A stretch of DNA of 64,000 bases from Rhodovarius crocodyli (GTDB lineage: Bacteria > Pseudomonadota > Alphaproteobacteria > Acetobacterales > Acetobacteraceae), in contig NZ_SACL01000001.1 in assembly GCF_004005855.1 (NCBI RefSeq), positions 992,001 to 1,056,000 of the forward strand. Reading direction: 5' to 3'. Both the position numbers and the translations under genes were made by a program. Below, piece by piece: positions 2,227-59,672 of the stretch (position 1 is its first letter; every line of letters begins with the position of its first letter). Under the pieces are notes generated by a model. That model searched no databases. It worked only from the letters and a program-made list of their open reading frames with translations, and was not told the DNA's origin.

Positions 2227-2885
2227 GGCATCCAGCCCTGTTCCACCAGGTCGATCACCAGGTTCTCGCCCGGGCTGTCCAGCGCGGCCAGGACGGCCGA
2301 CAAGGCGTCGGAGGGGGTGGCACCCTCCCCGAGCAGCCATTCCATCCGTGCGGAGGGGCCGGGCGGGCGGTCCAGCGGCAGGAAGCGCGTGTCCGGCAGC
2401 ACCTCCGCGATGCGTTGCGCCAGCCGCGTCTTGCCGCTGCCCAGGGGCCCCGTGATCCAGGTGATGGGGGCGATGGCCGGCAGCGAGAAGGGCTCGCCGC
2501 CCCAGGGCCAGGGCAGGTCGAAGGCGAGCGACGGGCCGGTTTCCAGCAGGCCGGACAGCGCGCCGGGCGCCAGGCGCAGGGCACGCAGCTTCGCCAGGCT
2601 GCCGGCGATGCGCGCGGCCTCGGATTTCAGCGCGGCCTCATGGGCATCGAGCGCCGCGGTCCATGCCGCCTCGTCGCCGGCCAGCACGCGGCCCACCTGC
2701 GCCAGCGACAGGCCGAGCGCGCGCAGCGCCGCGATCTCCGCCGCCCGCGCCGTCTCGGCGGGGCCATAGGCGCGCCAGCCGGCGGCGGTGCGGCCGGGCG
2801 TCAGCAGCCCTGCCTGCTCATACAGGCGCAGCGCCTTGACGGAGACACCCAGCCGGGCGGCAGCCTGGGACAGGCTGAGAGACAT
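2223..2885 (-). CDS. MerR-family regulator fused to a P-loop ATPase (truncated by frameshift)
   Basis: Residues 1-70 form a MerR winged-helix DNA-binding domain (LSQAAARLGVSVKALRLYEQ, then GWRAYG and ALGLSLAQVGRVL). A linker helix follows to about residue 110. From about residue 120 there is an ATPase-like segment with a Walker A motif, GPLGSGKT, near residues 146-153. The ORF stops after IDLVEQGWMP (220 residues), exactly where Walker B and downstream motifs should continue, and those appear in the adjacent frame at 1939-2226. MerR proteins with an ATPase effector instead of a metal- or drug-binding domain are unusual. Transcribed divergently from the MarR gene; ligand unknown. Confidence 0.75.
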   Translation of the reverse strand: MSLSLSQAAARLGVSVKALRLYEQAGLLTPGRTAAGWRAYGPAETARAAEIAALRALGLSLAQVGRVLAGDEAAWTAALDAHEAALKSEAARIAGSLAKLRALRLAPGALSGLLETGPSLAFDLPWPWGGEPFSLPAIAPITWITGPLGSGKTRLAQRIAEVLPDTRFLPLDRPPGPSARMEWLLGEGATPSDALSAVLAALDSPGENLVIDLVEQGWMP

Positions 2886-2967
2886 GGTGCGGCACTCCTG
2901 TGGTGGCGCTCGCTCTATCCACGCTGCCCCAGGGGCTGGGTCAAGCGGTTTCCGCGCGGCCGTATTA

Positions 2968-3100
2968 GCGAAGTAAGTTAGACATTATCTGCCCACGCCC
3001 GATGCAGGGCCGCACGCGGTCGCCCGGAATCCGTGCAACCTTCGTTTCGCAGGCGCGAACCTACTGTGAAATTTCAGATTGAGATTGCGAAGTAGCTTAG
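2968..3100. promoter_or_regulatory. Paired direct repeats in the MerR/MarR divergent gap
   Basis: GCGAAGTAAGTTAG (2968-2981) and GCGAAGTAGCTTAG (3087-3100) match at 12 of 14 positions and lie about 120 bp apart, between the MerR and MarR genes. The second copy abuts the palindrome AGCCTAGGCT (3099-3108) a few bases before the MarR start codon. They could be operator sites for the MarR protein or flank the two divergent promoters. This is inference from position and repetition only. Confidence 0.35.
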
Positions 3101-3114
3101 CCTAGGCTCCGTCC

Positions 3115-3672
3115 ATGGGCCTGAAGACGACACCGACCCCCGCGATCCCGCGCACGACATCCCGCGATGCGCTGCTGATCGACGGGTCCGACGCGGAGTT
3201 CCGCAAGCTGGTGCACGGGCTGCTCGCCCTCAGCACCCGGCATGAGGCACTGCGCGATGGCCATGGCGCGCGCATCGGTCTGGCGGGCCCGGCCTACACC
3301 ATCCTGATCTCGGTGCGGGACCTGGCGGCCCAGGGGCCGATCACCGTCTCGGGCGTGGCCGAACACCTGAAGGTCTCCGGCGCCTTCATCACCGCCGAGA
3401 CCAACAAGCTCGAAACGCGCGGCCTGGTCACCAAGACGCGTCACCCGGAGGACGGGCGCCGGGTGCTGCTCTCCGTCACCGAGGCCGGGCGCGCGCTGCT
3501 GGCGGACCTCGCCCCGGTGCAGACCATCCTGAACGACGTGGAGTTCGGCCCGCTCACCCGCGCCGAATTCCGCACCATGCTGCGCGTGATCGAACGGCTG
3601 ATCCCGGCCGCCGACCGCGCGCTCGAACTCCAGGCGGCGATGGCCGCCGGCGATGCCCGAGGCGTCGCATGA
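3115..3672 (+). CDS. MarR-family transcriptional regulator
   Basis: A 185-residue winged-helix regulator. The helix-turn-helix reads ITVSGVAEHLKVSGAFITAE (about residues 77-96), followed by the wing with TRHPEDGRRVLLSVTEAGRAL, a classic MarR signature. Its TGA overlaps an in-frame ATG of the downstream hydroxylase gene (ATGA), so the two are likely co-transcribed. By analogy with HpaR-type regulators next to 4-hydroxyphenylacetate hydroxylases, it probably represses this operon and responds to an aromatic substrate. The ligand is inferred from context, not from the sequence. Confidence 0.9.
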   Translation: MGLKTTPTPAIPRTTSRDALLIDGSDAEFRKLVHGLLALSTRHEALRDGHGARIGLAGPAYTILISVRDLAAQGPITVSGVAEHLKVSGAFITAETNKLETRGLVTKTRHPEDGRRVLLSVTEAGRALLADLAPVQTILNDVEFGPLTRAEFRTMLRVIERLIPAADRALELQAAMAAGDARGVA

Positions 3673-3686
3673 CAAAGGAAACCCTC

Positions 3687-5171
3687 ATGGCCGACGTCAA
3701 GAACGGCGCACAGCACATCGCCAGCCTGAAGGATGGCCGCCAGGTCTATCTGGACGGCACATTGGTCAGCGATGTGACGACCCACCCCGCCTTCCGGGGC
3801 GCCGTGGCCTCGGCGGCGAATTTCTACGACATCCAGTCCAAGCCCGAGAACATCGACTGGATGACCTTCGATTGCGGCGGCGGGCGGCGGGTGTCCCGCG
3901 CCTGGGAAATGCCGCGCAGCTATGAGCAGCTGGTGTCCCGCCGCAAGTCGCTCTCGGCCTGGGCGGCCAGCTCCTGCGGCTTCATCGGCCGCAGCCCGGA
4001 CCATGTGGCGTCCTGCATGATCGGCCAGGTGATGGCCGGCGACGTGTTCGAGAATTACAGCCCCGCCCGTGCCAAGGCGCTGCGGGATTATGTGGCCGAG
4101 GCCACGCGCAACGACTGGTTCCTGACCTACGTCATCATCAACCCGCAGGCCGACAAGTCGAAGGGCTGGGGCGAGCAGGCGGAGCCCGATCTCTCGGCCC
4201 GCATCGTGGATGAGGATGCCGAGGGCATCACCATCCGCGGCGGCAAGATGCTGGGCACCAGCGCCATCATGGCCAATGAGGTGCTCGTCGCCTCCCTGCA
4301 GCCGCTGCGCCCCGGTGAGGAAGACCTCGCCTTCTCCTGCTGCCTGCCGATGAACGCGAAGGGGCTGAAGGTGCTCTCGCGCAAGTCGTATGAGGCGCAT
4401 GCGGTCAGCGAGTGGGACAACCCCCTCTCCTCGCGCTTCGATGAGAATGACGCGGTGCTGTGGTTCGAGGACGTGAAGGTGCCGTGGGAGCGCGTGTTCG
4501 TTCACCGCAACACTGACATGTGCCGCGCGATGTTCCACGACACCTGGGCCCACACCATGCAGAACTACCAGGCGCAAATCCGCCTGGTGGAGAAGCTGCG
4601 CTTCCTGACCGGCCTCGCCCGCCGCGTGACCGAGACCATCGGCACGGTGAACATGCCGCCGGTGCGGGATGCGCTGGGCAAGCTCGCGGCGCAGACCGCG
4701 ATGGTGGAGGCGATGCTGCACGGCATGGAGGCCAGCGGCAGCCAGCAGGGCGAATGGTTCGTGCCCAACAAGCACATGATGTATTCCGCCCAGGTCATCA
4801 CCCAGACGCTGTACCCCGAGATCGCGAACATCGTGCGTGAGCTGTCGGGCGGCGGGCTGATCATGCTGCCGTCCAGCGCCGCCGATTACGGCAATGACGA
4901 GATGGCCCGCATCATCCGCACCACCCAGCAGTCGCCCGCCGCCGGCAGCGACGAGAAGGTGAAGTTCATGAAGCTGGCCTGGGATGCGGTGGGCAGCGAA
5001 TTCGCGTCGCGGCACCTGCAATACGAGATGTTCTATGCGGGGGCGAACTTCGTCACGCGCGGGCACAGCTTCCGCACCTATGACTGGGCGCGGGCGACGG
5101 CGATGGTGGATGATCTGATGGCCAGCTACGACCGGCCGGCCATGGCGCCCATCCAGTGGCGGGCGGCCTGA
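3687..5171 (+). CDS. 4-hydroxyphenylacetate 3-hydroxylase (HpaB) family oxygenase
   Basis: The large, reduced-flavin-dependent component of a two-component aromatic hydroxylase, 494 residues, as usual for HpaB. The N-terminal NGAQHIASLKDGRQVYLDG and the motif GRSPDH (about residues 101-106) are family hallmarks, followed by an acyl-CoA-dehydrogenase-like helical domain. The ATG at 3687 has AAAGGA 7 nt upstream; an ATG at 3669 overlapping the MarR stop is the alternative. No HpaC-type flavin reductase gene is adjacent, so FADH2 must be supplied from elsewhere. The gene runs directly into the Liv transporter genes, suggesting the transporter brings in its substrate. The exact substrate cannot be told from sequence. 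Confidence 0.9.
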   Translation: MADVKNGAQHIASLKDGRQVYLDGTLVSDVTTHPAFRGAVASAANFYDIQSKPENIDWMTFDCGGGRRVSRAWEMPRSYEQLVSRRKSLSAWAASSCGFIGRSPDHVASCMIGQVMAGDVFENYSPARAKALRDYVAEATRNDWFLTYVIINPQADKSKGWGEQAEPDLSARIVDEDAEGITIRGGKMLGTSAIMANEVLVASLQPLRPGEEDLAFSCCLPMNAKGLKVLSRKSYEAHAVSEWDNPLSSRFDENDAVLWFEDVKVPWERVFVHRNTDMCRAMFHDTWAHTMQNYQAQIRLVEKLRFLTGLARRVTETIGTVNMPPVRDALGKLAAQTAMVEAMLHGMEASGSQQGEWFVPNKHMMYSAQVITQTLYPEIANIVRELSGGGLIMLPSSAADYGNDEMARIIRTTQQSPAAGSDEKVKFMKLAWDAVGSEFASRHLQYEMFYAGANFVTRGHSFRTYDWARATAMVDDLMASYDRPAMAPIQWRAA

Positions 5172-6046
5172 TGGTCGCGCAGCAGCTCGTCAACGGCCTC
5201 ATGCTCGGCGCCATCTACATGATGGTGGCGGTGTCCTTCACGCTGTTCTTCGGGTGCCTGAACTTCCTGAATTTCTCGGTGCCCGCGCTGTTCATGCTGG
5301 GCGGGTTCCTGACCTGGGCCTTCGTGCAGATGGGCATGCCCTGGGTGGTGGCGGTGCTGGGCGCGCTGGCCGTGGCGGCGGTGGCATCGCTGATCGTGGA
5401 ACGCCTGACCTGGCGCATCCAGCGCGGCGGGCCGCCGCTGATCCCGCTGGTGTCCTCGCTGGGCTTCCTGATCCTGTTCGAGAACCTGGTGCTGGTGCGC
5501 TGGGGTTCCGATGCGCGCTCCATCCCCTCACCCTTCGGCGACGCCAATATCCGCATCGGCGAGGTGGTGTTGGGCGTGCCGCAGCTGGCCTGCCTGGTCG
5601 TCGCGATCGGGCTGGTGTTCGGGCTGCAGTTCCTGCTGGCGCGCAGCAAGCTGGGGCGCGGCATCCGCAGCGTGGCCGAAAGCCCCGAGACCGCGACCAT
5701 CCTGGGTGTCGAGGTCAACAAGGTGGTGCCGCGGCTGTTCCTGCTGGCGGGCCTGTTCTGCGCGCTGGCGGGGGTGATGTTCTCCCTCAGCTACCAGCTG
5801 GTCTCGCCCTTCATGGGGGACCAGGTGGCGCTGAAGGGGCTGGCCGCCATGGTGCTGGGCGGCATGGGCAGCGTGTGGGGCGCCGTGATCGGCGGGCTGG
5901 TCATCGGGCTGATCGAGATCTTCGCCATCAGCGCGCTGTCGGCCGACCATGTCAGCGTGGTGGTCTACGGGCTGCTGCTGGCGGTGCTGATCGTGCGGCC
6001 CACGGGCCTGTTTGGTGACGCCGGGCTGGGGCAGCAGAAGCTATGA
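5171..6046 (+). CDS. livH: Branched-chain-type ABC transporter permease (LivH family)
   Basis: An inner-membrane permease of 291 residues with about eight hydrophobic segments, starting MVAQQLVNGLMLGAIYMMVA. The segment GLAAMVLGGMGSVWGAVIGG near residues 220-240 is the LivH/LivM cytoplasmic loop that contacts the ATPases. The ATG overlaps the hydroxylase stop codon (TGATG), indicating translational coupling. Liv-type importers often carry aromatic or other carboxylates rather than leucine, and the hydroxylase neighbour supports that here. Confidence 0.93.
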   Translation: MVAQQLVNGLMLGAIYMMVAVSFTLFFGCLNFLNFSVPALFMLGGFLTWAFVQMGMPWVVAVLGALAVAAVASLIVERLTWRIQRGGPPLIPLVSSLGFLILFENLVLVRWGSDARSIPSPFGDANIRIGEVVLGVPQLACLVVAIGLVFGLQFLLARSKLGRGIRSVAESPETATILGVEVNKVVPRLFLLAGLFCALAGVMFSLSYQLVSPFMGDQVALKGLAAMVLGGMGSVWGAVIGGLVIGLIEIFAISALSADHVSVVVYGLLLAVLIVRPTGLFGDAGLGQQKL

Positions 6047-6870
6047 GCGGCTATTGGGCGGGCATTCTCGTCATCCTGGCGATCAACGTGATCGCCGCCT
6101 ATTCCGCCTGGCTGCCGCTGGCGGCGGGGCAGGTGAATCTCGGCACCGCGGGCTTCATGGCAGTCGGCGCCTATGCGGGCGCGGTGTTGAGCGGCGACTA
6201 TGAATGGCCGGTGGGTGCCGCCATCGCGGCCGGTGCAGTCGCCAGCGGGTTGCTGGCGCTGCTGGTGGGCTCTGCCGTGCTGCGCACGCGGGGGCTGTAT
6301 CTGGCACTCGCCACGCTGGCGGTGAATGAGGTGGTGCGCGGCATCCTGCTGAACTGGGATGCGGTGGGCGGTGCCTCCGGCTATCCGGTGATCGCGCATA
6401 TCGAGCTGCTGCCGATCGCCATCGCCGCGCTGTGCGTGTTCCTGGTGGCGGCCTGGCTGGGCGCCAGCCGCTTCGGCATGACGCTGCACGCCATCGAGCA
6501 GGACGAGACCATGACCGGCCTGTTCGGCGTGCATGTGTCGCGCGTGCAGCTGGCGGCCTTCACCATCGGCGGCGTGATGGCGGGGTTGGCCGGCGCGCTC
6601 TACGCGCATCATTTCTCCTATATCGAGGCGCAGTATTTCACCGTGCTGATGTCCGTCACCATCGTGCTGTCGGTGGTGCTGGGGGGTGTTCAGACGGTGT
6701 GGGGGCCGCTGGTCGGCGCCGCCTTCTTCACCCTGCTGCCGGAGCTGTTCCGGGGTGCCTCCAACTGGCGCTACGTGCTGTTCGCGGCGGGGGTCATCGC
6801 CATCATGGCGCTGCGGCCGCAGGGCATCGTGACCCGTGCCGCGCTGATGCGGCTGCGGAGGGCGGCATGA
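6043..6870 (+). CDS. livM: Branched-chain-type ABC transporter permease (LivM family)
   Basis: The second membrane subunit, 275 residues, overlapping livH by 4 nt. It shows the LivM pattern of hydrophobic helices, GTAGFMAVGAYAGAVL near residues 33-48, the cytoplasmic stretch FGMTLHAIEQDE, and the coupling loop VVLGGVQTVWGPLVGAAFF near the C-terminus. It should pair with LivH to form the channel. Its stop overlaps the start of livG. Confidence 0.93.
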   Translation: MSGYWAGILVILAINVIAAYSAWLPLAAGQVNLGTAGFMAVGAYAGAVLSGDYEWPVGAAIAAGAVASGLLALLVGSAVLRTRGLYLALATLAVNEVVRGILLNWDAVGGASGYPVIAHIELLPIAIAALCVFLVAAWLGASRFGMTLHAIEQDETMTGLFGVHVSRVQLAAFTIGGVMAGLAGALYAHHFSYIEAQYFTVLMSVTIVLSVVLGGVQTVWGPLVGAAFFTLLPELFRGASNWRYVLFAAGVIAIMALRPQGIVTRAALMRLRRAA

Positions 6871-51007: not shown

Positions 51008-51748
51008 CTAAACGTGCTGGCCGCCATTGATGTGGATCTCGGCGCCGTTGATGTAGCTGCTCTGGCCCGAGCACAGGAACAGGATGGTCTGCGCCACCTC
51101 CGTGGCCTCGCCCAGCCGCTTCATCGGGATCTGCTCCTCCACGATCTTCTCGGTGCCGGGGGACAGGATGGAGGTGTCGATCTCACCAGGGGCGATGGCG
51201 TTCACGCGCACGCCGTGCGGGCCGAATTCATGTGCCATTTCCCGCGTCAGCGCGGCCAGCGCCGCCTTGGAACAGGCATAGGCCGCCCCCGCGAAGGGAT
51301 GCACGCGCGAACCCACGATGCTGGTCACGTTCACGACCGAGGCCTGGGCCAGCTTCAATTCCCGGAACAGCCCGCGCGCCAGCAGCGCCGTGCTGAACAG
51401 GTTCACGTTGAACACCGAGGTCCAGAGGTCGTGGTCGCTGTCCAGCACGCCCAGCCGCGACCCGCCCGGCCCCTTGGGGGAGATGCCGGCATTGTTCACC
51501 AGCGCATGCAGCTTGCCGTCCGGCAGGCGGTTGCGCACGACATCGACCAGCGAGGCCACGTCCTGCGGGTTTTCCAGATCGGCCTGCAGGTGGCTGTCGC
51601 GGGCCTCGGGCCAGCGGCATTCCTCGGAAAACGGCTGGCGGGAAACGGTGAGGATGCGCCAGCCCGCGGCCTGGAACACCTTGACCGTGGCATGGCCGAT
51701 GCCCCGGCTGGCGCCGGTCAGCAGCATGGTCTTCCGATAGCCGCTCAT
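51008..51748 (-). CDS. Short-chain dehydrogenase/reductase
   Basis: 246 residues, classical SDR. The NAD(P)-binding TGASRGIGHATV is at residues 11-22, NNAG near 90, and the catalytic Ser (VTSIVGS) and YxxxK (YACSK) lie near 140-160. The C-terminus is GAEIHINGGQHV. Its ATG overlaps the maf stop by 4 nt. In many relatives aroE occupies this place next to maf; here an SDR does. Substrate unknown. Confidence 0.92.
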   Translation of the reverse strand: MSGYRKTMLLTGASRGIGHATVKVFQAAGWRILTVSRQPFSEECRWPEARDSHLQADLENPQDVASLVDVVRNRLPDGKLHALVNNAGISPKGPGGSRLGVLDSDHDLWTSVFNVNLFSTALLARGLFRELKLAQASVVNVTSIVGSRVHPFAGAAYACSKAALAALTREMAHEFGPHGVRVNAIAPGEIDTSILSPGTEKIVEEQIPMKRLGEATEVAQTILFLCSGQSSYINGAEIHINGGQHV

Positions 51749-52356
51749 GCCGGCAATACCCCTTGCTGACGCAGGAAGCCCAGCACCGCCAGCATGGGCA
51801 GGCCGAGAATGCTGCTGTGTTCGCCCTCGATGCGGTCGAAAAGCTGGATGCCCGGCCCCTCGAGCCGATAGGCGCCGACGCTGGAGAGCACCGCCTCGCC
51901 TTCCAGTGCCAGATATTCCTCGATGAAGGTTTCGGACAGCGGGCGCACCCAGAGTTTCGGGCTGTCCAGATGCGTCCAGATGCGGCTGCCGCCCCGGAAG
52001 GCCACGATGCCGTTCACCAGCCGGTGCCGCTTGCCCGACAGCGCGCGCAGATGGGCGGCGGCGCCGGCCATGTCCGCCGGCTTGTCGAACCAGCTGCCCT
52101 CGCATTCCAGGATCTGGTCGGCGCCCAGCACCAGCGCCTCGGGCCGACGGCGGGAGATACGCTCGGCCTTGGCATCGGCCAGCAGCACGGCGGCGTCCTC
52201 GGGGCTGTATTCCTCGGCGCGGGCGGCGGCCTTCAGCGCGTCCTCATCCACATGGGCGGCCTCCGCCGTGAAGCGCAGGCCGGCGGCCGCGAGCAGGCCG
52301 CGCCGGGCGGAGGACTGGCTGGCCAGGACCAGCGGCGGAAATTCAGCCTGCGGCAT
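51745..52356 (-). CDS. maf: Maf-family nucleoside triphosphate pyrophosphatase
   Basis: 203 residues. [21 protein letters not shown] is the Maf substrate-binding N-terminus (SSARR replaces the common SPRR), with [20 protein letters not shown] and [20 protein letters not shown]. Maf proteins hydrolyse non-canonical or modified NTPs. It overlaps the PPDK-regulator gene by 14 nt and lies in the usual alphaproteobacterial origin-proximal neighbourhood. Confidence 0.94.
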
Positions 52357-53242
52357 CGGGGCGGCCGAGCACGATAGCGGCGGGGTCCTCGGGCGCGTGG
52401 TCCGTGTGGTTGCCGCGTTTCTTATGCCACAGCTCCATCTGCTGCATGATGGTCGCGGCCGTTTCCTCGATGCTGCGGCGGGTCACGTCGATGACGGGCC
52501 AGCCGCGCTGGGCGCAGAGGCGGCGGGCGGCGATGATCTCGGCCTTCACCGCTTCCTCGTTCACGTAATCCGTCTCGCCCTGGCGCACGCCGCCGGTGCC
52601 GATGATCTTGAGGCGCGTGCGGCGGATGTCGATCAGGGATTTCGGGTCGATGGTCAGGCCCACCACCGGGCAGGGGGGGTCGTCCAGTTCCCCGGGGATG
52701 GCGGCGCCGGGCACCAGCGGCACGTTGGCCGCCTTCACGCCGCGATTGGCCAGATAGAAGCAGGTGGGCGTCTTGCTGCTGCGGGACACGCCCACCAGCA
52801 CGACATCGGCATTGGCGATGCCGGTCAGGCCCTGGCCGTCATCATGCGCCAATACATAGTGCATGGCGTCGATGCGGCGGAAATAGTCGGCGTCCATCAC
52901 ATGCTGGGCGGCGCGCTTCTGCCGGGCGGGCATGCCGATCGCATGGGTCAGCATGTCCTCCACCGGGTCCAGCACCGAGACGCACTGGATATCCAGCCGG
53001 TGGCAGGTTTCCTCCAGCGCGGCGCGCAGGGAACGGTCCACCAGGGTGAACATGACGGGGCCGGGCTCGGCCTCCAGCCCCTCCAGCACCTGGTCCAGGT
53101 TCATGCGGGAGCGCACGAGCGACCAGCGGTGATGGATGACATGCGGGTTGTCGAACCGCGACAGCACGGCGCGCGCGATGGAGTTCAGCGTCTCTCCCGT
53201 GCTGTCGGACACCAGGTGCAGGTTGATGCTGCGGTTCACCAT
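52343..53242 (-). CDS. Pyruvate phosphate dikinase / PEP synthase regulatory protein (kinase-pyrophosphorylase)
   Basis: 299 residues, DUF299 family. It switches PPDK or PEP synthase off and on by ADP-dependent phosphorylation and phosphate-dependent dephosphorylation. The start [20 protein letters not shown] and the P-loop [20 protein letters not shown] are characteristic. It is divergent from hemE across a gap with DnaA-box-like sites, an arrangement known from other alphaproteobacteria. Confidence 0.95.
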
Positions 53243-53538
53243 GGGGAATTCCGTGAATGGTGTGGAAAAGCGGGGATGGAATCACCCCGCCCGGCACGCC
53301 GCCGGGAGTCCTGGGCATCCATTGCACAGTTTGATAACCCGGGCGGCGGCGCCGAGGGAAAATGTGGATGATGTGGACAGCTTGCGCCAGCCCAGGGGAA
53401 TCCTCGATGTTCGCGACGTGAACAAAACGGACATCCCTGATGGCGGAACGCGGATGAGTGGGGTTTCACATAATCCACAGCACCACCACCAACCCAACTC
53501 TTTCTAGATTCTCTTTATTGTTAGAGAAGGGGAGCGCG
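53243..53538. other. Candidate chromosomal replication origin between the PPDK regulator and hemE
   Basis: In this 296-bp gap I see DnaA-box-like 9-mers: 53261-53269 (complement TTTTCCACA, a full match to TTWTNCACA), 53363-53371 (complement TCATCCACA), 53372-53380 (complement CTGTCCACA) and 53471-53479 (TAATCCACA). An AT-richer stretch (about 53500-53525) lies beside hemE. In Caulobacter and some other alphaproteobacteria the origin lies next to hemE. Genes to the left run mostly leftward and hemE-hemH run rightward, as expected around an origin. The hemE promoter must also lie here. Not proven. Confidence 0.5.
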
Positions 53539-54576
53539 ATGACCGAAAAACCCCTCCTTGCCGCGCTTCAGGGCCAGCCCGTCTGGCCGCCCCCCGTATG
53601 GATGATGCGCCAGGCGGGCAGGCATCTGCCCGAGTACAAGGCCACGCGCGCCCAGGCGGGCAGCTTCCTGGCGCTGGCCACCACGCCCGAGCTCGCGGCC
53701 GAGGTCACGCTGCAGCCCGTGCGGCGCTACGGCATGGACGGCGCCATCCTGTTCAGCGACATCCTGATGGTGCCCTGGGCCATGGGGCAGAAGCTGTGGA
53801 TGGCGGAGGGCGAGGGCCCGCGGCTGGAACCCATCCAGGACATGGCGGCGCTGTCGCGCCTGAACCCGGCAGCCCTGCGCGGCACGGCCGCGCCGATCTT
53901 CGAGACGGTGTCCCGCGTGCGGGAGGCATTGGACGAGGCCGGCAGCCGCACCAGCCTGATCGGCTTCGCGGGCAGCCCCTTCACGGTCGCGTGCTATATG
54001 GTCGAGGGCAAGGGCGGCAGCGATTTCGCCCTGACGCGGGAACTGGCCTATGCCGACCCCACCTTCTTCGCGCGGCTGATCCGCATCCTGACCGACGCCA
54101 CGGTGGATTATCTGCTGGCGCAGGTGGAGGCAGGGGCCGAGGCGCTGATGCTGTTCGACAGCTGGTCGGGGCTGCTTTCGCCCAACCAGTTCCGGCGCTG
54201 GGTGATCGACCCCACGGCCGCGATCAGGCGCGCGGTGGCCCAGGCCGCGCCGCATATCCCGATGATCGGGTTCCCCCGCCTCGCGGGGCTCATGCTCGGG
54301 GATTACGCGGCCAAGACCGGCATGCAGGGCATCGGGATGGATACCCACACCGATCCGCGCTGGGCCGCGCAGGTGGTGCCGGACAACATGGCGCTGCAGG
54401 GTAACCTCGACCCGCTGGCGCTGCTGGCCGGCGGCATCGCGCTGGAGACGGAGGCGCGGACGCTGCTGTCGACCATGCGTGGGCGCCCGTTCATCTTCAA
54501 CCTGGGCCACGGCATCGAGAAGGAAACCCCGATCGAGCATGTGGTGCAGGCGCTGCGGCTGGTGCGGGGCGGCTGA
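53539..54576 (+). CDS. hemE: Uroporphyrinogen decarboxylase
   Basis: 345 residues. It decarboxylates the four acetate side chains of uroporphyrinogen III to give coproporphyrinogen III. The signature PPPVWMMRQAGRHLPEYKATR lies near residue 19, and GFAGSPFTVACYMVEG near 140. The ATG at 53539 follows AAGGGGAG. The stop overlaps the start of hemH (TGATG). Confidence 0.97.
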   Translation: MTEKPLLAALQGQPVWPPPVWMMRQAGRHLPEYKATRAQAGSFLALATTPELAAEVTLQPVRRYGMDGAILFSDILMVPWAMGQKLWMAEGEGPRLEPIQDMAALSRLNPAALRGTAAPIFETVSRVREALDEAGSRTSLIGFAGSPFTVACYMVEGKGGSDFALTRELAYADPTFFARLIRILTDATVDYLLAQVEAGAEALMLFDSWSGLLSPNQFRRWVIDPTAAIRRAVAQAAPHIPMIGFPRLAGLMLGDYAAKTGMQGIGMDTHTDPRWAAQVVPDNMALQGNLDPLALLAGGIALETEARTLLSTMRGRPFIFNLGHGIEKETPIEHVVQALRLVRGG

Positions 54577-55637
54577 TGGAAAAAGTCGCCATCGTGCTGC
54601 TGAACCTGGGTGGGCCGGACAGCCCCCAGGCGGTTCGGCCCTTCCTGGAAAACCTGTTCACCGACCCCGCCATCCTGCGCGTGCCCGGCTTCATCCGGCC
54701 GTGGCTGGGCAAGTTCATCGCCTGGCGGCGCGAAAAGCCGGCGCAGGAGAACTACGCCATCATCGGCGGGCGTTCGCCGTTGCTGGAGCTGACGGTAGCG
54801 CAGGGACAGGCGTTGGAAGGCGCGTTGGCGGGTGAGGAAGGGCGCGAATACCGTTGCTTCGTCGCCATGCGGTACTGGCACCCCTTCAGCGACGAGGCCG
54901 CCCGGCAGGTGAAGGAATGGGGGGCCACGCGGGTGCTGCTGCTGCCGCTGTACCCGCAATATTCCACCACCACGACCGGCAGCAGCCAGACCGCCTGGGA
55001 TGAGGCCGCCGCGAAGATCGGCCTGTCCGTGCCGAGCCAGACCCTGTGCTGCTGGCATTCGGACGATGATTTCGCCGCCGCCACCGCCGCGATGGTGCGC
55101 GAAAGCCTGCGCCAGGCCCAGGCAAGCCTGGCCCCCGGCCAGAAGCTGCGCGTGCTGTTCAGCGCGCATGGCCTGCCCGAGACCATCGTGAAGCAGGGCG
55201 ACCCCTATCAGTGGCAGGTCGAGCAGACGGTGGCCGCGGTGGTGAAGGCGCTGGATGAGCCCGGGCTGGACCATGTGGTGTGCTATCAGTCCCGCGTGAC
55301 GCCGCAGAAATGGATCGGGCCCAGCACGGAAGCCGAGATCGAGCGCGCGGCGGCCGGGAAGGTGGCGCTGCTGGTCTGCCCCATCGCCTTCGTCTCCGAG
55401 CATTCGGAAACCCTGGTGGAGCTGGACGTGGAATACCGCGAGATCGCGGACCACAAGGGCGTGCCGGGCTATTTCCGGGTGCCGGCGCAGAACAGCGACG
55501 CGGCGTTCATCGCCTCTCTGGCGGGGCTGGCGCGGCGCACCCTGGCGGCCGAACGCCCGCTGTGCAGCTTCAGGGGCGGCCGCCAATGCCCCAAGACCCA
55601 TACCGACTGCCCCCACGCCAAGGTTCGCGCCGCATGA
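54576..55637 (+). CDS. hemH: Ferrochelatase
   Basis: 353 residues; inserts Fe2+ into protoporphyrin IX. The family signature region includes KVAIVLLNLGGPDSPQAVRP at the start, the FSAHGLPETIVKQGDPY motif with the catalytic His, and VSEHSETLVELDVEYRE near residue 270. It is translationally coupled to hemE. The enzyme for the step before it (HemJ) is encoded about 42 kb away in this window. Confidence 0.97.
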   Translation: MEKVAIVLLNLGGPDSPQAVRPFLENLFTDPAILRVPGFIRPWLGKFIAWRREKPAQENYAIIGGRSPLLELTVAQGQALEGALAGEEGREYRCFVAMRYWHPFSDEAARQVKEWGATRVLLLPLYPQYSTTTTGSSQTAWDEAAAKIGLSVPSQTLCCWHSDDDFAAATAAMVRESLRQAQASLAPGQKLRVLFSAHGLPETIVKQGDPYQWQVEQTVAAVVKALDEPGLDHVVCYQSRVTPQKWIGPSTEAEIERAAAGKVALLVCPIAFVSEHSETLVELDVEYREIADHKGVPGYFRVPAQNSDAAFIASLAGLARRTLAAERPLCSFRGGRQCPKTHTDCPHAKVRAA

Positions 55638-57740: not shown

Positions 57741-59672
57741 ATGACGAGCGACATGTTCGGCGCCGATGCGCCGGATCCGGCGGAAGACGCCATCCCCGAG
57801 CCCCCTGCCCCCGAAGGCCCCGGCCTGTTCGGATTCGACGATCCGCCGCCGCCGCCCGTGGCTGCCGCGGCGCCGGCACCGGTGGCCGCGCCGAAGCCCG
57901 CCGCCGATGGCCAGCCCTATCGCGTGCTGGCGCGGAAATACCGCCCCAGGGATTTCTCGGAGCTGGTGGGCCAGGACGCGCTGGTGCGCACCCTGCGCAA
58001 TGCCTTCGCCACCGGCCGCGTGGCGCACGCCTTCATGCTGACCGGCGTGCGCGGCGTGGGCAAGACCACCACGGCCCGCATCATCGCCCGCGCGCTGAAC
58101 TGCATCGGCGTGGACGGCAATGGCGGGCCCACGCCCGAGCCCTGCGGCGTGTGCGCCAACTGCACCGCCATCCTGGCCGACCGCCACCCGGATGTGATGG
58201 AGCTGGACGCCGCCAGCAACAACGGCGTGGACGATGTGCGTGAGCTGCGGGAGGCCGTGCGCTATCGGCCTGCCCAGGCGCGCTTCAAGATCTATATCCT
58301 CGACGAAGTGCACATGCTGTCCAACGCGGCGTTCAACGCGCTGCTGAAGACGCTGGAGGAACCGCCGCCGGCGGTGAAGTTCATCTTCGCCACCACGGAA
58401 CTGCGCAAGGTGCCCGCGACCATCCTGTCGCGCTGCCAGACCTTCCACCTGCCCCGCGTGCCGCAAGCGACGCTGCGTGCCCATTACGGCAATATCTGCG
58501 CGAAAGAGGGCGTGGAAGCCGAGGAAGAGGCGCTGTCCATCATCGCCCGCGCGGCGGATGGCTCGGTGCGCGACGGGCTGTCGCTGCTGGACCAGGCGAT
58601 CGCGCTCTCGGCCGGGGCCGTGACCGGTGAGACGGTGCGGGAAATGCTGGGCCTGGCGGACCGCACCCTGGTGCTGGACGCGCTGGAGGCGGCGCTGACC
58701 GGCGACATGCCGGCGCTGATCGGCCACCTGGACCGCGCGCATGAGCGCGGGGCCGAGCCCGGGGTGGTGCTGGCGGACATGCTGGAGCTGACCCACACGC
58801 TCACGCGGCTGCACGCCGTGCCTGGGCTGGCGGGCGACCTTTCCTTGCCTGAGCATGAGCGCACGCGCGGTGCCGCGCTGGCGCAGAAGCTGAGTGTGCC
58901 CGTGCTGGGCCGCGCCTGGCAGATCCTGCTGAAGGGTGTGCCAGAGATCGCTGAGGCCCCCGACCGGCGCGCGGCGCTGGAGATGGTGCTGATCCGGCTG
59001 GCGCATGTGGCGGATATGCCCACGCCGGGTGATCTGGTGCGGCGCCTGACCGAGGGCGGCGGTGCCCCCGCCGCGCCGCGCCCGAACCCGAATGGCGGCG
59101 GCGGCGGCCCCACCCTGCGCGCCATCGCGGGCGGCGGTGCCGTGGTGGTGGCGGAACCCGAGGCCGCGCCGCAATTCGCGCCGATGCCCACGACCTGGCA
59201 GGAGGTGGTGGCCCTGGCCGCCGATCCGGACCCTGCCCTGCACGCCCAGCTGCGGCATGAGGTGCATCCCGTTTCCCTGGCGCCGGGCAAGATCGAGATC
59301 GTGCCCCGCCCCGCCGCGCCGCGCGACCTGGCGGGCAAGCTGTCGCTGCTGCTGGAAAAGGCGACGGGCACGCGCTGGGTGGTCACCATTTCCCGCGACC
59401 AGGGCGCCGCGACACTGGGCGACCAGGGCAAGGCCGCCGAGGCCGAACGCCTGGCCGCCGCGCGCGTTCATCCCTTCGTGCAGGCCATTCTGGCGGCGTT
59501 TCCGGGTGCCGAGGTGCAGAATGTGCGCGACACCCGCGCCGACAATTACGGGCTGATCGGCGCGGCCCTGCTGGGGCGCGTGGCTGAATCGCCCGACGAC
59601 CTGCCCGAATTCGCCCCGCCGGACGCCATGCCGGCCTATGATGACGATGAAGCCCCTTCAGACGAGGACTGA
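57741..59672 (+). CDS. dnaX: DNA polymerase III subunits tau/gamma
   Basis: 643 residues; clamp-loader ATPase. After a Pro/Ala-rich N-terminal extension of about 55 residues comes YRVLARKYRPRDFSELVGQD. Walker A is GVRGVGKTTTARI, zinc-binding cysteines are in EPCGVCANCTAI, Walker B is IYILDEVHMLS and the SRC motif is LSRCQTFHLP. The C-terminal tau part starts near residue 440. No A-run slippery site was seen, so a frameshift-made gamma is not evident. Confidence 0.95.
   Translation: MTSDMFGADAPDPAEDAIPEPPAPEGPGLFGFDDPPPPPVAAAAPAPVAAPKPAADGQPYRVLARKYRPRDFSELVGQDALVRTLRNAFATGRVAHAFMLTGVRGVGKTTTARIIARALNCIGVDGNGGPTPEPCGVCANCTAILADRHPDVMELDAASNNGVDDVRELREAVRYRPAQARFKIYILDEVHMLSNAAFNALLKTLEEPPPAVKFIFATTELRKVPATILSRCQTFHLPRVPQATLRAHYGNICAKEGVEAEEEALSIIARAADGSVRDGLSLLDQAIALSAGAVTGETVREMLGLADRTLVLDALEAALTGDMPALIGHLDRAHERGAEPGVVLADMLELTHTLTRLHAVPGLAGDLSLPEHERTRGAALAQKLSVPVLGRAWQILLKGVPEIAEAPDRRAALEMVLIRLAHVADMPTPGDLVRRLTEGGGAPAAPRPNPNGGGGGPTLRAIAGGGAVVVAEPEAAPQFAPMPTTWQEVVALAADPDPALHAQLRHEVHPVSLAPGKIEIVPRPAAPRDLAGKLSLLLEKATGTRWVVTISRDQGAATLGDQGKAAEAERLAAARVHPFVQAILAAFPGAEVQNVRDTRADNYGLIGAALLGRVAESPDDLPEFAPPDAMPAYDDDEAPSDED

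Follow-up and report, generated by a model that had tools for sequence, protein, structure and literature searches.

Does the short gap beside hemE in the Rhodovarius crocodyli genome hold the replication origin of the main chromosome? The window that we analyzed is a 64,000-nucleotide stretch of contig C11 (C11:992001–1056000) from a 5.27-Mb draft genome in 48 contigs, and an earlier note on this DNA had proposed a candidate origin in this gap. Our sequence, comparative, and chromosome-scale tests agree in supporting that proposal. The origin's position, the cluster of DnaA boxes, its conservation, and chromosome polarity in the genome's own contig and in two relatives all mark this gap, and we consider it very probable that DnaA-dependent replication of the main chromosome starts here, at an origin of the hemE/COG1806 type described for Caulobacter and Rickettsia.

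The intergenic gap of 296 bp is bounded by two divergent genes, and profile matches to both agree with the earlier identification of a PPDK-regulator gene on one side and hemE on the other. The ppsR gene matches NF003742, a match that we take to be equivalent to COG1806. The locus is composed as follows (window positions).

51745–52356, minus strand: maf-like gene to the left of ppsR (TIGR00172, 111.7 bits, just below the cut-off of 117; PRK02478, 209 bits, below the cut-off of 269)
52343–53242, minus strand: ppsR, PPDK/PEP synthase regulator (COG1806/DUF299), left flank (NF003742, 307 bits, cut-off 225)
53243–53538, no strand: putative chromosomal replication origin (DnaA-box cluster, conserved arrangement and box enrichment, octamer polarity zero nearby)
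53539–54576, plus strand: hemE, uroporphyrinogen decarboxylase, right flank (TIGR01464, 371 bits, cut-off 303; ATG at 53539)
54576–55637, plus strand: hemH, ferrochelatase (TIGR00109, 273 bits, cut-off 125)

The strand switch that had been described at the gap stands only in part. Genes do read predominantly leftward from 42.5 to 53.2 kb, where 11 of the 12 leftward frames tested have a family match (one of them weak) and the sole rightward frame has none, but the switch is local. To the right of the gap the matched frames are, in order, hemE, hemH, a HAD hydrolase (plus), MgtC (minus), dnaX (plus), and three leftward frames (one weak), so that no strand switch exists on the scale of a replichore. 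The dnaX gene (57741–59672, plus strand), which encodes DNA polymerase III gamma/tau, is some 4 kb away from the gap. An Rfam search of 52900–53900 returned nothing up to E = 1.

Within the gap, motif scans, base composition, and alignment identified these elements.

53261–53269, minus strand: DnaA box TTTTCCACA, fully fitting the relaxed consensus TTWTNCACA, one mismatch from the strict TTATCCACA
53313–53337, no strand: conserved mid-gap element, GGG-A followed by GCACA, shared by the window with five near relatives (alignment)
53363–53371, minus strand: DnaA box TCATCCACA, one mismatch from TTATCCACA
53372–53380, minus strand: weak DnaA-like box CTGTCCACA, two mismatches, abutting the preceding box
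53471–53479, plus strand: DnaA box TAATCCACA, one mismatch from TTATCCACA, 59 nt upstream of the hemE start
53497–53525, no strand: AT-richer stretch, candidate unwinding element, 72% AT

The sequence thus bears out the earlier count of at least four DnaA-like 9-mers, three at one mismatch and one at two, and the AT-richer stretch that had been placed near 53500–53525; the description of 53261–53269 as a full consensus match is true of the relaxed form. Only four one-mismatch boxes occur in the whole window and three of them are inside the gap, where 0.02 would be expected at window density; the genome-wide total of 213 corresponds to 0.012 expected per 296 bp. GC content is 57.8% in the gap versus 69.4% in the window.

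Such a cluster could in principle serve transcription alone, the gap being only a regulatory region shared by ppsR and hemE, with DnaA as a transcription factor and the origin elsewhere. Both genes do start at the gap, and DnaA boxes are also found upstream of the genome's own gcrA homologue. Against this, no further 300 bp of C11 carries three boxes among the matches listed (100 of the 213, apparently complete for C11), and box density, together with the octamer polarity and the position relative to dif candidates described below, favors an origin; we regard the purely regulatory explanation as very unlikely.

The arrangement is conserved. We collected hemE loci from public genomes, keeping the best 80 of at least 587, among which the nearest by hemE similarity (94%) was that of Rhodovarius lipocyclicus, a species that we take to belong to the Acetobacteraceae. 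The order ppsR, gap, hemE is retained in 66 of the 80 relatives, with gaps of 244–883 bp. The fetched hemE locus of the other 14 (Rhodopila, Acetobacter, Acidisphaera, and others; L074, L075, L079, L082, L083, L084, L086, L087, L088, L091, L094, L099, L100, and L101) has no ppsR match, and a ppsR match is absent altogether from 11 of 29 genomes. The 883-bp gap, in locus L025, is almost threefold the usual length and has DnaA boxes 842, 643, 596, and 58 nt before hemE.

DnaA boxes are concentrated in these gaps at 126-fold the density of the remaining locus DNA (110 in 22,586 bp versus 43 in 1,111,813 bp), and exact boxes number 21 in the 66 gaps against 3 elsewhere in these loci. With the window's own gap included (n = 67), at least one box is present in 60 gaps, at least two in 39, and at least three in 11, while 7 have none; the density is 4.94 per kb compared with 0.23 in 204 non-coding-like control windows. 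An unbiased 7-mer count led to the same motif, TCCACAG being present in 62 of the 67 gaps and in 13 of 670 stretches drawn at random from these loci. A weaker TGGGGA form, absent from the window gap, occurs in 46 of the 66 relatives' gaps (3.63 versus 0.26 per kb in GC-matched stretches). Positions are conserved too: R. lipocyclicus (L023) has a box identical to TCATCCACA at 166 versus 167 nt from hemE, exact TTATCCACA stands 59–63 nt before hemE in 14 of 66 relatives, and AT content across the 66 peaks about 16–60 bp before hemE. Inverted box pairs less than 60 bp apart, of which the window gap has none, are spaced by 23–24, 32–33, or 44–45 bp (26 pairs), in steps of about one helical turn, although these spacings are not independent events because the loci are related. 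Among 28 further genomes, the gap holds a box in 13 of the 14 in which ppsR adjoins hemE; where it does not, a box lies within 600 bp upstream of hemE in 12 of 14, a count in which low GC raises the chance of a match in several genomes.

We infer DnaA binding, an opening site, and firing at the gap. DnaA would load on the stronger boxes, most likely above all on the forward box some 60 nt ahead of hemE, and would then spread across the weaker TGTGGA-type boxes; the AT-richer stretch beside the hemE start would open, and two forks would depart.

At chromosome scale, GC skew gives no help in this genome. The skew minimum looked for at the gap as a check is not there: skew is positive on both sides, with no sign change, and stays positive on the genome's own contig through the gap to about 1.096 Mb, where it turns negative. 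Sampled more widely over 1.02–1.22 Mb of C11, it has positive values from about 1.02 Mb up to 1.096 Mb and negative values in sampled stretches past parAB, a course that fits no simple replichore. Skew is also weak in two single-contig relatives. Over the first 20 stretches of each, with arms defined by hemE and dif, skew in G218 is positive in 7 of 10 stretches of one arm and negative in 7 of 10 of the other; the corresponding counts for G166 are 7 of 10 and 6 of 10.

The sign change near 1.096 Mb coincides with parAB (C11, about 1.095 Mb), and dnaA, which marks the origin in many other bacteria, lies on another contig.

C22:4698–6065: dnaA

An origin beside either of these genes would leave the hemE gap without that role. 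The order mnmE-mnmG-parS-rsmG-parA-parB at about 1.092–1.0965 Mb of C11, in which mnmE, rsmG, and parA were named by reading the sequence rather than by search, carries the only exact parS, and the 95% interval of the octamer polarity fit given below covers parAB. The skew change there, however, runs from plus to minus, the reverse of what an origin should show if the leading strand is richer in G than in C. No DnaA box at up to one mismatch is found in C11:1056001–1136000, around parAB, or in C22:1–20000, around dnaA, and we judge an origin beside parAB or dnaA to be highly improbable. The parS site is 49 kb from the gap, and in 13 relatives the nearest parS taken is 7.8–76.9 kb from hemE. 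Published work covering five orders places parAB near ori in nearly every genome, Rhodospirillales being among the groups with exceptions (PMC8116508).

In place of GC skew we used octamer polarity and dif position. The GGGNAGGG octamers are presumably FtsK-orienting sequences, and among all octamers GGGCAGGG shows the strongest strand skew in G166 and G218 (114 to 39, with stretches oriented by hemE and dif). A graded logistic fit that does not assume hemE, with the G166 and G218 circles cut at the dif candidate, puts the polarity zero of GGGNAGGG on the genome's own contig at 1052 kb (95% interval 928–1235, wide enough to include parAB; gap at 1045), in G166 at 2724 kb (2478–2985; gap 2722), and in G218 at 5403 kb (5116–5683; gap 5339). 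Fitted alone, GGGCAGGG gives 1036 kb (928–1185), 2776 kb (2460–3122), and 5240 kb (4790–5638), respectively.

A step-change fit to the octamers was rejected. It gave 895 kb for the genome's own contig (95% set 473–1020), 2665 kb for G166 (2636–2711), and 6308 kb, unrolled, for G218 (5454–6317), all three sets excluding the gap. We replaced it because octamer bias grows with distance from the origin, a change decided after the step-change result was known.

Terminus position was examined through dif-like candidates, which were found in 24 of 29 genomes; a reversed control pattern matched in 10 of 29, and G033, G111, G179, G233, and G090 gave no candidate. The best match was taken as dif, and in G007, G020, G034, and G167, where candidates tied at three mismatches, the choice was made by hand. 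The arms of our own genome are not measurable because the assembly is a draft in which the dif candidate falls on a separate contig (C43); with it and G211 (two weak candidates) excluded, 22 relatives could be compared, every contig, including those of multi-contig genomes, being taken as a closed circle. In 17 of the 22 relatives, several of which share a genus and several of whose dif candidates have three mismatches, hemE is roughly opposite the candidate, the longer arm being at most 56.2% of the contig. Where hemE stands beside ppsR, the longer arm is at most 53.4% in nine of ten genomes. In the remaining five of the 22 (G077, G017, G188, G034, and G095) the longer arm is 64.8–92.7% and hemE is not opposite the candidate. 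The combined p for hemE opposite dif is 1.5e-6 over ten genera with G165 used, or 3.1e-5 with its sister G188 instead, and covers only those ten genera, not the genera added afterwards. A replichore polarity switch is observed in the genome's own contig and in two relatives, and an opposite terminus in the relatives only. Standing against the origin are the missing skew switch, the 7 of 67 gaps without a box, the step-change fit elsewhere, the 5 of 22 dif exceptions, and the many weak dif candidates.

The gap also holds a cluster of GANTC (CcrM-type methylation) sites, 4 of the 31 in the window, all found by motif scan.

53279–53283, no strand: GANTC site (motif enriched in relatives' gaps)
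53306–53310, no strand: GANTC site
53398–53402, no strand: GANTC site
53507–53511, no strand: GANTC site, within the AT-richer stretch

This cluster is a real property of hemE/ppsR gaps. GANTC density is 12.46 per kb in the 67 gaps versus 2.58 in the 204 non-coding-like controls, a comparison in which the largest excess among four control palindromes of the same composition was 1.3-fold (AGNCT). Against GC-matched stretches the values are 12.44 versus 1.28 per kb (66 gaps), with AGNCT raised 2.7-fold and CTNAG 1.8-fold. Among 300-bp windows of its own locus, the gap ranks first in GANTC density outright in 44 of 67 cases, shares first place in 12, and does not rank first in 11; the G077 gap has 12 sites in 321 bp. 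Of the 28 further genomes, those with ppsR adjoining hemE have 72 sites in 4,627 bp (15.56 per kb), none of them in the G167 and G048 gaps; the others have 15 in 4,900 bp (3.06 per kb), and in these the true origin may lie outside the 350 bp taken.

The sites are also retained between relatives. In stricter alignments limited to gaps shorter than 420 bp, GANTC sites were kept at 55–65% identity in 723 of 2125 cases versus 208 of 1936 for control palindromes and 19% for random positions (228 pairs), at 65–75% identity in 236 of 349 versus 63 of 232 and 39% (32 pairs, 25 loci), and at 75–92% identity in 168 of 201 versus 74 of 144 and 54% (21 pairs); these counts are not independent because pairs share loci. 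Among sites retained at 55–65% identity, the middle base is identical in only half. Retention above controls points to selection on GA-TC itself, and the cluster looks shaped by selection. The idea that GANTC sites are seated on DnaA boxes was rejected, the sites being slightly farther from box cores than random positions (median 23 versus 16 bp).

All 20 genomes tested, our own included, encode a RAMA domain, which we take to be linked to CcrM, and a GcrA-family protein. Our gcrA homologue (G000:C11:709821–710495, minus strand) has two one-mismatch DnaA boxes about 95–135 bp upstream (710454 and 710487), as if DnaA regulated gcrA too. The methyl mark exists in the Acetobacteraceae, m6A at GANTC having been reported in a Roseomonas gilardii strain (PMC5356067).

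What the cluster is for is less clear. A promoter role for ppsR or hemE is at least as likely as a role in replication timing, and the general excess of GANTC in intergenic regions of Alphaproteobacteria (PMC3973325) also sits well with the regulatory-region explanation considered above. We entertain only as a doubtful possibility that CcrM methylation gates the origin of those Acetobacteraceae in which ppsR adjoins hemE, in a Dam/SeqA-like manner that replaces the CtrA control of Caulobacter. Under such gating the selected GANTC cluster would be half-methylated after firing, and a putative reader, perhaps GcrA or a SeqA-like protein, would bar DnaA until CcrM acts late in the cycle. In Caulobacter, initiation is normal without CcrM and excess CcrM leads to extra chromosome copies (PMC3973325). 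GANTC control of RepC-type origins has been discussed (PMC11514494, PMC6090056), and methylation control was suggested for the RepC-type ori2 of Agrobacterium (PMC11514494). Our literature search, whose coverage left out most subscription journals, listed no title on clustered GANTC sites at the hemE origin in Acetobacteraceae.

CtrA control through consensus sites is unlikely. The check for TTAA-N7-TTAA came out negative: the window gap has none even when two mismatches are allowed, and the relatives gave no exact site in 66 gaps, 10 one-mismatch sites spread over 5 of 67 gaps (no more than in controls), and no enrichment at two mismatches. Sites for IHF are likewise no more frequent than in controls at one or two mismatches across the 67 gaps, with exact sites in 2 of 66; the window gap has none at one mismatch and one at two.

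The gap belongs, very probably, to a type of origin that is already known, and only the methylation-site cluster raises a question. The placement matters because an origin can be assigned in a draft genome for which GC skew is no guide, and because DnaA boxes, octamer polarity, and dif position make the hemE/ppsR origin of Acetobacteraceae recognizable. Through the selected GANTC cluster, methylation timing of initiation becomes testable at a DnaA-dependent alphaproteobacterial chromosome origin.

Compared with known origins, the features of the hemE/COG1806 type that we observe are a gap of a few hundred base pairs, a DnaA-box cluster unusual for the genome, and raised AT content; a GC-skew shift is absent. 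As regards Cori of Caulobacter crescentus, 20 of 66 relatives have the strong form TTATCCACA, and 9 of 66 have TGATCCACA, presumably the Caulobacter G-box. The earlier appeal to an established hemE-side origin in Caulobacter has published precedent (PMC1914354), and the Caulobacter and Rickettsia origins both sit between hemE and COG1806 according to that paper. Cori, which we compared from print only, shares with our gap both flanking genes, DnaA boxes, and an AT-rich stretch (PMC1914354), as well as several GANTC sites (PMC3973325, citing Shaheen 2009). It differs in that our gap has neither a CtrA consensus site, as required of a CtrA-controlled Cori proper, nor a good IHF site. The same source reports that GC skew is insufficient in several species, that not every origin element need occur, and that there are related origins without CtrA sites (PMC1914354). 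The Rickettsia origins share the hemE/COG1806 flanks, but they are very AT-rich, with two CtrA sites reported in at least R. conorii (PMC1914354), whereas our gap is GC-rich and has none. The E. coli oriC with Dam/SeqA has a methylation site other than GANTC and a different methylase, and shares with our gap a cluster of adenine-methylation sites within a DnaA-dependent origin (PMC10073500).
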